Shown: one piece after another, positions 3,424 to 19,064 of the stretch
Position numbering within the stretch: the first letter of the stretch is position 1
Layout of the letters: each line of letters starts with the position of its first letter
IMG/VR virus record: IMGVR_UViG_3300042560_001089
Location: 1-36,955 of that record
Strand: one strand, 5' to 3'
DNA: 36,955 nucleotides
Source of the DNA: a virus
Program-made: the position numbers and the translations under genes
The notes under the pieces: model-generated
Told to the model about the DNA's origin: nothing
The model's input: only the letters and a program-made list of their open reading frames with translations
Databases searched by the model: none

Positions 3424-3460
3424 GAAAAAAGAAAAAGGCGGGAGGCCGAAGCCCCCCGCC
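3424..3460 (-). terminator. Rho-independent terminator after the decoration gene
   Basis: On the - strand a 10-bp stem (one A/C mismatch) closes on a TTCG tetraloop and is followed by TTTTTCTTTTTT. The stem occupies 3437-3460. It lies 12 nt beyond the decoration gene stop at 3472 and immediately upstream of the Shine-Dalgarno sequence of the 3407 gene. Confidence 0.85.
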
Positions 3461-3471
3461 CGAAATGCCCG

Positions 3472-3954
3472 TTAGTCCGGGCAGGTGACGAGAACGATCT
3501 TGGCCGAATGATCGACCGCAATCGCGCAGATGTGGTCGGTGACGAGGGCCGACACGTCGAGCGTGCCGTCCGTCGAGCCAACCGGGGTCAGTGCGTTGCC
3601 GTCAGCGCCAGCCGTCAGCGCCGTGGTGAGCGTTGCTACGCCGGAAATCTGAATCCAGCCGTATTCGCCCGTAGCGATGACGGCCTGAAGGACGCCAGCG
3701 CCGACGTTTGCCGAGTCCGACAGGTCCGACGTGACAATCGAGGTCGATCCAGCCGAAACGCCGCCCGGTGCGTAGTAGTAGGCGAAGTTGCCAGCCGCAG
3801 CGGCGACCGCACCGGCCCCGCTGTTGTACTGCACAAGCTTGTACTTGATGCCCGTGTTGTCCGTGTAGATGTCACCGAGAGCGAAGCCCGCGCCCGGCGT
3901 GTTGCTGTTGAGAGACGAGTACGTCTCGGACAGCTTGGCTCCAAAAGTCGCCAT
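3472..3954 (-). CDS. Capsid decoration-like protein
   Basis: A 160-aa protein starting at ATG 3954 with GGAAAGGG upstream. It is small, acidic, rich in Gly/Ala/Thr/Ser and beta-forming residues (for example GEYGWIQISGVATLTTALTAG near residues 97-117), with almost no charged helical segments. The segment GYGWIQ..G is typical of beta-barrel head-decoration or head-fibre proteins. It sits immediately after the major capsid gene and is insulated on both sides by terminators, as expected for an abundant stoichiometric virion part. Decoration function is inferred from composition and position. Confidence 0.68.
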   Translation of the reverse strand: MATFGAKLSETYSSLNSNTPGAGFALGDIYTDNTGIKYKLVQYNSGAGAVAAAAGNFAYYYAPGGVSAGSTSIVTSDLSDSANVGAGVLQAVIATGEYGWIQISGVATLTTALTAGADGNALTPVGSTDGTLDVSALVTDHICAIAVDHSAKIVLVTCPD

Positions 3955-5014: not shown

Positions 5015-6154
5015 TTAGGCCGCGTTAAAGATACGATCAGCCGTCTGGCGGACCGTTTCTTCCATAGACTTGGGCGTGGACGGGGAAGCCCCCACGGTGC
5101 CGCGCGTGGCTACGTTGGTCTGCGCGACCCGTCGTGCTTCTGACGCTTTCTTCTCGGCTTCTGCTTTGCGTGCGGCTTCCTGCGCGGTCTGCTGTGCGGC
5201 AAAGACCTTCGCGCGGGTTTCCGGGTTGGCGTGGACCGCCCGGTCGTAAGCCTCTTTCAAAACCTGATCAGGCGACAACTCAGGGCGCGTAGCCTTGAGA
5301 TGCGACACCATCGGAAGCATGTCGGCTTCGACCGCTTCATAGTGTTCGTTCACCGGATCGGACTTGAACCGCTCGATAAGCGAGAGAATATGCGTCTGCT
5401 TTTCCTGCTGTTCCGCCTGTACGCGGGAATTCAGGAAGCGTTCCGTCTGCTCAAGCCGCTGCTGTAGCGCGGCAAGGTTGGGGTCCAGTGGGGCTTGATA
5501 GCCCTGCTGTGCCCCGGTTTGGACACTGCCGAGGTCGATCCCGTACATGCGGGCAATCTCGCGGATTGCCTGCTGTGGGTTGGTTCTAAGCGCCTCATCT
5601 GCCGCCGCGAGGTTCGACACGTATTGCGCGGGGTGAATGTTGTTCACCCTCAAACGCGCTTCCACGGGCCGCAACGCTTCCGCAATCGGAGCGAGATTGC
5701 CTAGTTTGCCTTCGTACTCGGCTTTAAGTTTTGCAACGCCGTCCTGCTGCTGTTTCTCGCGCAACGCGACATAATCGCGAAGAGCGGGATCGGCTTTATC
5801 CAGGAGTGCGCGCTTGTCTGCCGCCCAGCTTGTCGGTGCCGACACAACGGGCTGCGGTTCCGCCTTTGTAGGGGCGGGATTTGGTTCGACGGGAGCGGCC
5901 ACAGGGGGCGCTTCTGCCGTCTTGGTTTTCTCGATAAACTTGCCATCGGGGCCGCGTAACCTGTCCGGGTTGGACGAAGGAACGGGCTGCTCGCTCTCAT
6001 GCTCAACCGATGGAAGGCCCGCGCCCTCTGGGAGGGACTCAGCGGGGGCGGACGCCTCGGAGGCCGCGATCTTGTCGAACGCGGCGCTCATGGTTTCTTC
6101 GATAGAAGGCTTCTCGGCGGGCGTTGTCGCGCCCCCGTTGGCAACGTCGGTCAT
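5015..6154 (-). CDS. Scaffolding protein
   Basis: A 379-aa, very acidic and Ala/Pro/Glu/Gln-rich protein starting at ATG 6154. The first 120 residues are low-complexity and probably disordered. After that come long charged helices (REKQQQDGVAKLKAEYEGKL; LQQRLEQTERFLNSRVQAEQ; QEAARKAEAEKKASEARRVA), ending with a short conserved-looking SMEETVRQTADRIFNAA. Absence of hydrophobic core, high helix content and position directly upstream of the capsid gene are characteristic of internal scaffolds that are removed before packaging. No protease is evident nearby. Confidence is moderate to high on context. Confidence 0.8.
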   Translation of the reverse strand: MTDVANGGATTPAEKPSIEETMSAAFDKIAASEASAPAESLPEGAGLPSVEHESEQPVPSSNPDRLRGPDGKFIEKTKTAEAPPVAAPVEPNPAPTKAEPQPVVSAPTSWAADKRALLDKADPALRDYVALREKQQQDGVAKLKAEYEGKLGNLAPIAEALRPVEARLRVNNIHPAQYVSNLAAADEALRTNPQQAIREIARMYGIDLGSVQTGAQQGYQAPLDPNLAALQQRLEQTERFLNSRVQAEQQEKQTHILSLIERFKSDPVNEHYEAVEADMLPMVSHLKATRPELSPDQVLKEAYDRAVHANPETRAKVFAAQQTAQEAARKAEAEKKASEARRVAQTNVATRGTVGASPSTPKSMEETVRQTADRIFNAA

Positions 6155-15941: not shown

Positions 15942-16358
15942 TTATCCCGTGGTTTGTGTGGACAAGTCGGCGTGCTCGTTCTTGATGGAGAACTTGGCTT
16001 TCTTCTCGACCACCCGCTTGATGGGCGCGCACGGCACCCCGTTTATGCAGAACTCGACCGCAGGGAACATCGCCTGAGCGAGCTTCCAGCGGATCGTCCA
16101 AGCCCTCGTCTTTGTCGGGGCCACCTTGTGCTCGTCCCACACTTCCTTCTGCCCCCGGAAATAGGCGAAATCGCATCGAATGCTCGTGATCTTCACCCCG
16201 TTGACCACCAGCGGGACGTTGAGTTGGCGGCGGAGCGTTCGGATCTCCCCCGCGCGTTCTAGGAGCTTCAACTCGCACCACCGCCGATGCTCGGCCTGAC
16301 TGTCGAACGTGATCCCGTCTACCGTCACCCGCTTGTTTCCGTACTTGGGGCGCTTCAT
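15942..16358 (-). CDS. DUF1064-like nuclease
   Basis: A 138-aa protein starting at ATG 16358 (ATGA with the methyltransferase stop). It shows the DUF1064 signature: KYGNKRVTVDGITFDSQAEHRRWCELKLLERAGEIRTLRRQ, then G.KI..I.CDFAYF.....V.DEHK. The E/D/QxK arrangement (FDSQAEHRRW; CDFAYFRGQKEVWDEHK) fits a PD-(D/E)XK-type nuclease fold. Such proteins are common in phage replication blocks and are thought to act on DNA branches or ends. The biochemical activity is inferred from the family. Confidence 0.8.
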   Translation of the reverse strand: MKRPKYGNKRVTVDGITFDSQAEHRRWCELKLLERAGEIRTLRRQLNVPLVVNGVKITSIRCDFAYFRGQKEVWDEHKVAPTKTRAWTIRWKLAQAMFPAVEFCINGVPCAPIKRVVEKKAKFSIKNEHADLSTQTTG

Positions 16359-17147
16359 GCGGCACCGTCCAAGAGGCTCGCTTGAACGGGCTTAGGCGCT
16401 GGCTCGGCAAAGAGGCGGGGCTGCTTGTATGCGTCGTCAATTCGCTTGCAGGCTATGTCGAAGTATTTCGGCTCCAACTCTATGCCGACGAACTTCCGCC
16501 CGAGCTTTGCGCACGCAACACCCGTGGTGCCGCTGCCCATGAAGGGGTCGCAGACCGTGTCGTCGCCGCTTGTGTGTATCGACACGAGCCGCTCGATCAA
16601 CTCGATGGGCTTTTCGTTCGGGTGCAACCGTTCGCGGGGCGGCATTTGCGAGAGAATGTTGGCAACCGTTCCCGCGTCGGGATTCCACCGGATGCGCCCG
16701 CCCGTTTTGTGCGCGACCATCACCATCTCATGCTGCCTGCGATACCGAAGGCCGAGTCGGGGGTTTTTCTTGTCCCAAACCAGCGAATGAAAGAACTGCA
16801 AGCCGCCGCGATCCATGCGCTCTGCGAGCCACGCGAACACGGGGCGAGGCCCCCCCCCCGCCACAAAAGCAACAGCACGCCGACGCCCCTTTGGGGAGCA
16901 ATCGGGCCACTTCCAGAAGCATCCCGTCGACCACGCGCCGCATTGAGTCCGCGTCGTCGTTCGCTATCGGCTTGCTTTCGATCCCACGGTGTTCGTTTAG
17001 GCGCGCGTTAAAGTCGCCGTCATGGTTGGAGTTGCCGTAGGGCGGATCTGTAATGCAGGCATCCACCTTCCCAAGCGTCGGCAGTATCTCTAGGCAATCC
17101 CCCAGGATCAGCCGGGCGTCTCCGATGATTTCCTCTCGGTAGGTCAC
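16355..17147 (-). CDS. DNA methyltransferase, interrupted by a frameshift at a poly-G tract
   Basis: Two overlapping frames encode one protein. The N-terminal frame starts at GTG 17147 (GTGA coupling) and carries ITDPPYGN (DPPY at residues 34-37), the catalytic motif of N6-adenine or N4-cytosine enzymes. At 16859-16850 the coding strand has ten consecutive G residues; with nine, the reading passes directly into the second frame. That frame contains [35 protein letters not shown] and the SAM-binding [33 protein letters not shown], ending at 16355. Motif order (DPPY before the GxG loop) fits the beta class. As written, translation ends at 16728 and lacks the SAM site. The split is a sequencing or assembly error, slippage expression, or phase variation. 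It may protect phage DNA from host restriction. Confidence 0.85.
16850..16859. repeat. Ten-base homopolymer (C on +, G on coding strand)
   Basis: The longest homopolymer I noticed. It sits exactly where the methyltransferase changes reading frame. A tract of nine or twelve would restore a single open frame. Confidence 0.9.
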
Positions 17148-17395
17148 TCCGCCAGCACCTTCTCGACCGTCTGGACCTCGCGACTGATTAGGTCGCTGAT
17201 CTTCAATAGGGCTGCGTCCAAGTCGGAGCCGCGCGCGTGCTTGTATTGGATGCGAACGCCGACAACGCGGCCAACTGCGAAGCCATCGGGGCTTTCACGG
17301 TCCACTGAGACATAGAAACTCGCGCCGGCATCTTCGCGGGGCTTGATCTTGAACGTCTCGCAGACCGTGCGGTTAGGCGGGCGGCGGCGGCTCAT
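17144..17395 (-). CDS. TSCPD-like small protein
   Basis: An 83-aa protein starting at ATG 17395, ATGA-coupled to the 40-aa gene upstream. The sequence [21 protein letters not shown]...[23 protein letters not shown]...[25 protein letters not shown] follows the layout of TSCPD-type domain proteins (basic 'LPnRR.sEtf' start, short beta region, helical C-terminus). These occur alone in alphaproteobacterial phages and fused to ribonucleotide reductases elsewhere. No activity can be assigned. It overlaps the methyltransferase start by 4 nt. Confidence 0.6.
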
Positions 17396-17514
17396 AGTGC
17401 GCGAGCCTTCGCCAATACCCATTCACGGCGGCGCTTGACGCGATATCCGGGGGCCGCTGTTCTGTATCTCTGGCGGGCGACTTGCTCGCCGTGGGTCCAG
17501 AAATCAAGCTGCAT
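17392..17514 (-). CDS. Small basic protein, 40 aa
   Basis: ATG at 17514, with GAAGG upstream, inside the last codons of the preceding gene (11-nt overlap). The stop at 17394-17392 overlaps the next ATG (ATGA). The product begins MQLDFWTHGEQVARQRYRTA and continues [20 protein letters not shown]. It is strongly basic and helical. It fills the interval between neighbours exactly. I recognise no family. Confidence 0.62.
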   Translation of the reverse strand: MQLDFWTHGEQVARQRYRTAAPGYRVKRRREWVLAKARAL

Positions 17515-17809
17515 CGGACACCTTCGGGGCTTCGGGTGCGCGCAACCGCATGTAAGCATCTGCGAATGCGTGCTTGGCTTTCAGCTTTTCCACGCGGTCG
17601 CCGCCATCTTCGGCGTCCTGTAGCGCGGCTTTTTCCATGCTCTTGATGAACTGGAAGCCGTCAAAGCCGTCCGCCTTGAACTGCTTGCGAAGCTCTGTCC
17701 AATCCGCGCTAAGGGCTAGTTCGTCTTTCATCAGGTTGGCGACACGGTCACCGTAAGCGGCGTATGCCTGCTCGCTGCCGTTGGAAAAATTATTATTTTC
17801 TTCGCTCAT
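17504..17809 (-). CDS. Hypothetical helical protein, 101 aa
   Basis: Starts at ATG 17809 (ATGA with the upstream gene). It opens with an Asn/Ser-rich stretch (MSEENNNFSNGSEQ) followed by helices: MKDELALSADWTELRKQFKADGFDGFQFIKSMEKAALQDAEDGGDRVEKLKAKHAFADAYMRL. The 'AK.dGFD...l' spacing and YMRL end faintly recall GapR/DUF2312 proteins, which bind overtwisted DNA in Alphaproteobacteria. The resemblance is weak and should be treated as a hypothesis only. Confidence 0.65.
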   Translation of the reverse strand: MSEENNNFSNGSEQAYAAYGDRVANLMKDELALSADWTELRKQFKADGFDGFQFIKSMEKAALQDAEDGGDRVEKLKAKHAFADAYMRLRAPEAPKVSDAA

Positions 17810-18666
17810 GCCGCGTCCTCCATGCAGAAACAGTCAATCCGGTTCTCGTCGGGGAAGTCGAGATTGGTTTGAGCCAGTACCGCCCGTTTCATTTCCGCGT
17901 AGCCGGGTCGGTCTTTGCGAAACCGCGCGCCCATAGGCTTGCTTGTGCGTGCCTCAGCCTCAGCCTCAGCCTCAGCCCACCAATCGGCTAGTTCGGGATT
18001 GGCGCGAATCAAGCCAGCAATCGTCGCCGCAGACTTTAAAAAACACAGGTCGCAGTTACCGGCTGGTGTCGTGCCGTTAATATTTGGCAAGCGAAGGTCA
18101 AAGTTTTGCTTCTGCCAAAACGCGAGAACATCCCGCTTTGTAATGCCCGCCGTTGCGAGCGGAGCGAACGGCTCAACGCCAGCACGGTTTTGATTTCGGA
18201 TGCGGGCCACGCGGGCCGGTTCGTCGGCGCGAAGCCCTAGCGCCTTATCGTATTCCGTCCATCCCAAGCCAAATTTAGCGTACCGTTCGCACGGAAAAAT
18301 CTTAAGTTCGACCGTGCAGAAGCGCGTGACGGGGTTCGGCAGATACCCCTTCTTGTCGTTGACCGCCTTGAACGGCTCACCATTCCGCGCCGCCGTCTCG
18401 TAAGTCACTCGCTCCCAACGGTCCTTGGTTTCTTCGGCGTCCTTGTATTGAAGCCAAACGATATCGACGCCCCACCGCTCGCCGCAATCGCGCACGAAAT
18501 CCAATGTTTGCGGCATCTCTTTGCCGGTGTTCGCAAACGTCACCTTAACGTCATCGGGTAGCGTGCCGCCGTGCGCTTGAAGAATGCGCCAGAGCATGTA
18601 ACCGCTCGTCCTGCCGCCCGAGAACGAGATCAGCGCGGGGCCGTCGATCTTAAATGGATCGTTCAC
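17806..18666 (-). CDS. PAPS-reductase/adenine-nucleotide-alpha-hydrolase family protein
   Basis: A 286-aa protein. GTG 18666 was chosen because GGGAGG precedes it and it overlaps the upstream stop (GTGA). The PP-loop SFSGGRTS (residues 14-21) starts an alpha-hydrolase domain, followed by VTFANTGKEMPQTLDFVRDC and VDIVWLQYKD, typical of PAPS-reductase-like enzymes. Further motifs are PNPVTRFCTVELKIFP and Cys clusters GNCDLCFLKS and IDCFCMED at the end, which could hold a metal or Fe-S centre. Phage members are linked to sulfur transfer or nucleotide modification rather than sulfate assimilation. Substrate is unknown. A GCCTCA hexanucleotide tract encodes Ala-Glu repeats near the C-terminus. Confidence 0.8.
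   Translation of the reverse strand: MNDPFKIDGPALISFSGGRTSGYMLWRILQAHGGTLPDDVKVTFANTGKEMPQTLDFVRDCGERWGVDIVWLQYKDAEETKDRWERVTYETAARNGEPFKAVNDKKGYLPNPVTRFCTVELKIFPCERYAKFGLGWTEYDKALGLRADEPARVARIRNQNRAGVEPFAPLATAGITKRDVLAFWQKQNFDLRLPNINGTTPAGNCDLCFLKSAATIAGLIRANPELADWWAEAEAEAEARTSKPMGARFRKDRPGYAEMKRAVLAQTNLDFPDENRIDCFCMEDAA
17951..17974. repeat. GCCTCA tandem repeat (4 copies)
   Basis: Four perfect 6-bp units inside the PAPS-reductase-like gene, encoding an (Ala-Glu) tract. Each unit is six bases, so changes in copy number would keep the reading frame. It is probably a surface linker that tolerates length change. Confidence 0.85.
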
Positions 18667-19064
18667 GCAGCCTCCCCATTCCCGTACTGCACAACCCCGC
18701 CAAGCGTCCGATCCGCCTCGGGGTTTCTCGACAGCGCAACCGTGTTCGCGAATGCGCGGGAGTAATCGAATGGTCTGCTTGCGGGGTGGTCTTCGTATGT
18801 GATCGGCATATCCACCCACCGCTGGTAATCGTCCCGTCTCGCAAGGCGGTCCATTTCCGCCGCAGATGCCGCGCGTGCAGCTTCGCGCCGCTCCCGCTCG
18901 ATCCGCCGTAACTCTGCTTCCTCGCGGCGGCGCTCGATTTCCTTGGCCGTCATCCGTTCGCGGTTCATCACCATTGAGACGGGTATCTTGAATGCCTTGG
19001 CAACCATCCTGGGACTGTTGCCAGCGGCTAGAGCGGCGTCGATTACTGCGGCGGTTATGGTCAT
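18663..19064 (-). CDS. HTH-like protein with charged coiled coil
   Basis: A 133-aa protein starting at ATG 19064 (ATGA). Residues 1-35 (TITAAVIDAALAAGNSPRMVAKAFKIPVSMVMNRERM) look like a helix-turn-helix. Then comes a long Arg/Glu helix (AKEIERRREEAELRRIERERREAARAAS) and a less regular C-terminus. It could be a small DNA-binding dimer. Its family is unknown. It is GTGA-coupled to the PAPS-reductase-like gene, so both are likely made together. Confidence 0.65.
   Translation of the reverse strand: MTITAAVIDAALAAGNSPRMVAKAFKIPVSMVMNRERMTAKEIERRREEAELRRIERERREAARAASAAEMDRLARRDDYQRWVDMPITYEDHPASRPFDYSRAFANTVALSRNPEADRTLGGVVQYGNGEAA

Follow-up and report, generated by a model that had tools for sequence, protein, structure and literature searches.

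A ten-G tract at the frame junction of a tailed-phage DNA methyltransferase gene, a candidate site of phase variation

In the genome of an uncultivated bacterial virus, a DNA methyltransferase gene is read in two frames that meet exactly at a run of ten G, and the best-supported reading of this arrangement, to which we give a probability of about one half on the basis of sequence comparison, is slipped-strand phase variation of the enzyme. The source record is linear (IMG/VR IMGVR_UViG_3300042560_001089), and its whole length of 36,955 bases was analysed as the window, in which tailed-phage portal, terminase and amidase proteins are also encoded. A search for the host through prophages carrying the portal protein gave a single distant match, in a Euryarchaeota MAG. 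The order small ORF, methyltransferase, RusA-like resolvase, with 4-base overlaps, is common to the window and its closest relative phage, IMGVR_UViG_3300042924_003291 (L019), which is 91% identical over 8.3 kb. A PAPS-reductase-like gene (phrog_424, 17806-18819) adjoins this operon, and a related phage has a C5-methyltransferase near that position. The features of the locus are as follows.

15942-16358, minus strand: RusA-like Holliday junction resolvase; 4-base overlap with the methyltransferase stop, same order in L019
16355-17147, minus strand: beta-class N6/N4 DNA methyltransferase gene, frame-broken in the window copy; motif order DPPY then FxGxG
16355-16864, minus strand: ORF of the C-terminal half, 169 aa, with the target-recognition region, NEKP and the AdoMet motif FMGSGT; PF01555, E=2.2e-25; 62-67% identity to L004/L003
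16526-16549, minus strand: DPFMGSGT, motif I, AdoMet binding
16551-17069, minus strand: middle segment of the methyltransferase, swapped in the closest relative phage; no blastn match there, flanks 84-91% identical (window vs L019/L091)
16728-17147, minus strand: ORF of the N-terminal half, 139 aa, with the DPPY catalytic motif; 70-72% identity with L003/L004 as far as the junction
16850-16859, minus strand: G10 tract (C10 on the plus strand), the frame junction
16863-16877, minus strand: Cys-rich stretch TGC TGT TGC TTT TGT, counterpart of the poly-Cys strand of relatives
17037-17048, minus strand: DPPY, motif IV
17144-17422, minus strand: small ORF; 4-base overlap with the methyltransferase start, same order in L019

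The initial annotation held that the two halves lie in different frames joined exactly at ten G and that nine G would give one intact enzyme, and both statements were borne out by the ORFs and by frame arithmetic. Read on the minus strand from 17147 to 16355, the halves meet at the G10 tract, and with 9 or 12 G they would be joined as ...CCCFC(G)nPRPVFAW in a single frame, such that ten G is one surplus; the final ~40 codons of the N-half ORF, past the tract, are out of frame relative to the homologues. The tract is the sole G/C run of at least 7 in the window, where a first-order Markov model of the same sequence predicts 0.08 runs of at least 10, and runs of at least 6 are rarer than this model predicts (5 seen, 18 expected). 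An outlier of this kind, positioned exactly at a frame junction, is not a chance reading.

We conclude that an uncultivated tailed phage here carries a single orphan DNA methyltransferase gene of the beta class, whose product has a CcrM-like fold as read from the predicted structure of a homologue. The motif order of the class, a DPPY-type motif IV before an FxGxG motif I, is present across the two frames in the window and within one polypeptide in the homologues. The N half alone falls below the Pfam threshold but matches phrog_67 (E=6e-12). For the L004 homologue, an AlphaFold model (pLDDT 81) had CcrM (6pbd) as its best fold match (E=2e-17), with 6pbd, 2zie, 5hfj and 8urk as the top structures. 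CcrM, M.BceJIV, M1.HpyAVI and TTHA0409 share fold and motif order with the window family at 21-25% sequence identity, and no poly-Cys/poly-Gly run or poly-G tract was noted in them.

Homologues with the two halves as separate genes, which the initial annotation had counted as evidence against its reading, were looked for and were absent: of 31 distinct relatives, 30 have an ORF that crosses the homologous junction without interruption. In the remaining one, L013/L014, the junction itself is in frame and the gene is broken further downstream, at an A7 run near 6078, in two assemblies, showing that stray homopolymer frame breaks do occur. Since the homologues are single genes, a reading of the window as two separate genes that act as a split methyltransferase, the second starting at the GTG at 16864, is contradicted; this codon does precede the C half, but no ribosome-binding-like sequence is evident upstream of it, and we regard such a split enzyme as highly improbable.

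Both halves bear the mark of coding constraint in their own frames. Mismatches of the N half fall at third codon positions in 37/64 cases against L003 and 39/62 against L004, those of the C half in 61/112 against L003, and the out-of-frame C half runs for 169 codons without a stop. This bias and the open frame show that the gene is not an old pseudogene but was under coding selection until recently. Viral contigs were searched for a near-identical copy of the gene with a different tract length, and none was found. Apparently split methyltransferases of the isolate phages Rhizobium 16-3, Nostoc Nsp-JY10 and Mycobacterium Juniper1 were set aside as being, by annotation, adjoining separate genes and not broken ones.

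At the position of the tract, the relatives have a feature that is in itself unusual for a protein, namely 4-12 consecutive Cys followed by 3-6 Gly, usually encoded as (TGC)n(GGC)n; to our knowledge, Cys runs of this length are very unusual in proteins. Such poly-Cys/poly-Gly phage beta-class methyltransferases (L003, L004, L011, L015, L158, L176 and others) are homologous to window 16863-16877, and the AT-rich member L016 codes the junction with TGT/GGT rather than TGC/GGC. In the L004 model, the junction is predicted to form a strand (86-94) and then a loop. These genes (L003-L025, L149-L182) are direct homologues of the window gene, to which each half is up to about 70% identical, but they are in frame at the junction with GGC/GGT codons, where the window has a G homopolymer. 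Two different contigs, L158 and L176, carry (TGC)12(GGC)4 and (TGC)7(GGC)6, respectively, between flanks identical for 292 bp upstream and 549 bp downstream; thus, the junction changes length readily, here in whole triplets that keep the frame. A junction of G7 or longer was found in no member of the poly-Cys family besides the window copy, to which the pure G tract is therefore private. In the window, an uninterrupted G run has taken the place of the Gly codons, and there a slip of one base is of consequence.

In the closest relative phage, the methyltransferase at the same locus has ends 84-91% identical to those of the window, and its middle gives no blastn match to window 16551-17069; the swapped segment (L019 5790-6303) starts shortly ahead of DPPY and stops shortly ahead of DPFMGSG. 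Closely related phages have thus exchanged the central part of the methyltransferase, from DPPY through target recognition, and have kept the ends. This L019 gene has an in-frame G9 of its own, at another place than the window tract. In a more distant relative, 3300037541_000317, the N and C parts of a C5-methyltransferase are read in different frames and are separated by G8 and G9 runs, and, as read from three translations, one shift at the G9 would make both the methyltransferase and the overlapping ORF continuous again. Across 1.95 Mb of non-redundant phage DNA, four of the ten G/C runs of at least 9 fall in methyltransferase genes, which make up 7.6% of bases (binomial p=0.005, only a guide since the sample comes mostly from methyltransferase queries, includes the window and related phages, and is phylogenetically non-independent). 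Long G/C tracts in L035, L168, L111 and L191 have no methyltransferase link, and a G16 at L019 2282-2297 directly follows the stop of a repressor-like HTH ORF, outside any methyltransferase.

Long G tracts were also found in phage C5-methyltransferases. Viral contigs were scanned with a pattern (CAGGACAT, 6-20 bases, G9), which yielded 47 stretches; 35 of these are phage C5-methyltransferase genes in which G9-G15 immediately follows the catalytic PCQ motif. At 98% identity these form 28 clusters, of which about 19 are in frame, 8 include an out-of-frame copy and 1 lies at a contig end, a ratio that is selected because the scan required G9 or more. Among C5 genes fetched regardless of tract length, 44/45 are intact, the lone break being the G8/G9 case of 3300037541_000317. 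A near-identical pair, L311 (G9, out of frame) and L316 (G10, in frame), differs by 16 substitutions in 800 flanking bp and by the tract, and three contigs that match exactly for at least 963 bp carry the same out-of-frame G11. In six clusters that are one G short (L291, L294, L299, L310, L311, L325), the reading frame of the N-terminus leads into a long overlapping frame, itself present in phage C5 genes, and continues for 80-227 codons past PCQ; the overlapping ORF in L019 matches phrog_1008. The sequences suggest that the C5 tract is a possible frame toggle between two proteins. Among isolate and complete-genome loci (isolate phages, E. coli genomes and a plasmid), no G6+ tract was found at the PCQ site; one E. 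coli copy is a pseudogene through an internal stop, not through a tract.

Several other explanations of the frame break were weighed. A sequencing or assembly error, in which case the phage would really have 9 (or 12) G and encode an uninterrupted methyltransferase, is unlikely but deserves serious weight, given a single contig, a homopolymer site, intact relatives and an out-of-frame half that has not decayed. Against it, few indels separate the window from close relatives over 8.3 kb, and none was seen to break a confirmed gene, although several near 3430-3521 are ambiguous; in addition, one OFF tract is repeated in three contigs of another group, and OFF copies go with long tracts in the phage C5 genes. 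We likewise consider it unlikely that the gene was inactivated in the window lineage by a single recent slippage event, with no adaptive switching. The privacy of the tract fits such an event, which a slippage-prone junction predicts, and the same locus exchanges cassettes with relatives; however, long tracts recur in the methyltransferases of the same phage group and are enriched in methyltransferase genes, and in-frame versions are in excess among tract-bearing C5 genes.

The initial annotation had also named programmed or transcriptional slippage as possible roles of the tract, and this part fared worse. Its view of one methyltransferase gene broken at a slippage-prone tract stood, but the C half lies in the +1 frame, not in the -1 frame of a downstream ORF reached by programmed frameshifting, and since restoration needs +1 (or -2), programmed -1 frameshifting is excluded by direction. 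The usual tract for transcriptional slippage is poly-A/T, not poly-G. Transcriptional slippage or +1 ribosomal frameshifting on the G10 that yields a full-length enzyme would agree with a long G run exactly at the junction and with constraint on both halves, but the relatives keep no homopolymer at the junction and slippage at the RNA level found no specific support, so that correction of the frame at expression seems very unlikely.

Slipped-strand phase variation, in comparison, gains indirect support because the junction varies in length between contigs with identical flanks, because G9 tracts occur in other methyltransferases of the same phage group, and because C5 genes exist in in-frame and out-of-frame versions. 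The tract would slip in replication, such that populations would hold both in-frame genomes, with 9 or 12 G, and out-of-frame ones, with 10 or 11, the deposited contig being taken as an OFF molecule. The out-of-frame product would keep DPPY and lack the AdoMet-binding and target-recognition parts, and thus is expected to have no activity; the phage would thereby switch its progeny between a methylated and an unmethylated state, as a means of countering, for instance, host restriction or methyl-dependent nucleases. Several observations count against phase variation: the tract is private to the window copy, with no other poly-Cys member at G7+; the L158/L176 variation is in whole, frame-keeping triplets; homopolymers are sites of sequencing and assembly failure, which could yield the C5 OFF copies too; viral contigs yielded no further near-identical copy of the window gene; L013/L014 break at an A7; and C5 loci of isolates have no G6+ at PCQ.

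In bacteria, phase variation of methyltransferases by poly-G tracts is an established source of diversity in restriction and gene expression. In Type III mod phasevarions (ModA, ModM, ModH), simple repeats switch the frame of a methyltransferase, as proposed here for the window; these genes belong to the host, most of them switch by other repeat units, and a restriction partner accompanies them. The closest described system is Campylobacter jejuni Cj0031, in which a nine-G tract splits a type IIG methyltransferase/nuclease into two frames and switches in vivo (PMC4889913). As in the window, an intragenic poly-G divides a DNA methyltransferase into two frames with conserved domains on both sides (PMC4889913), whereas Cj0031 is a chromosomal bacterial gene with a fused nuclease and measured switching and the window gene is a phage orphan methyltransferase known from sequence. 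The window gene has a long intra-ORF tract at which ±1 base toggles the frame, and with the tract in the ON state it would be intact, with both parts under coding selection; by this analogy, it is a candidate member of the poly-G contingency loci. A literature search of incomplete coverage returned nothing relevant on phage-encoded poly-G phase variation or on poly-cysteine methyltransferases.

More broadly, and more tentatively, tailed-phage methyltransferases of both the N6/N4 and C5 types may be poly-G contingency loci that leave clonal progeny mixed in methylation, with the C5 tract toggling two proteins. The in-frame and out-of-frame pairs listed above are specific contigs on which switching can be checked with existing reads. 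If phages do switch their own methyltransferases by poly-G tracts, the phages of one burst would be mixed in their capacity to escape restriction, with consequences for host range and counter-defence.
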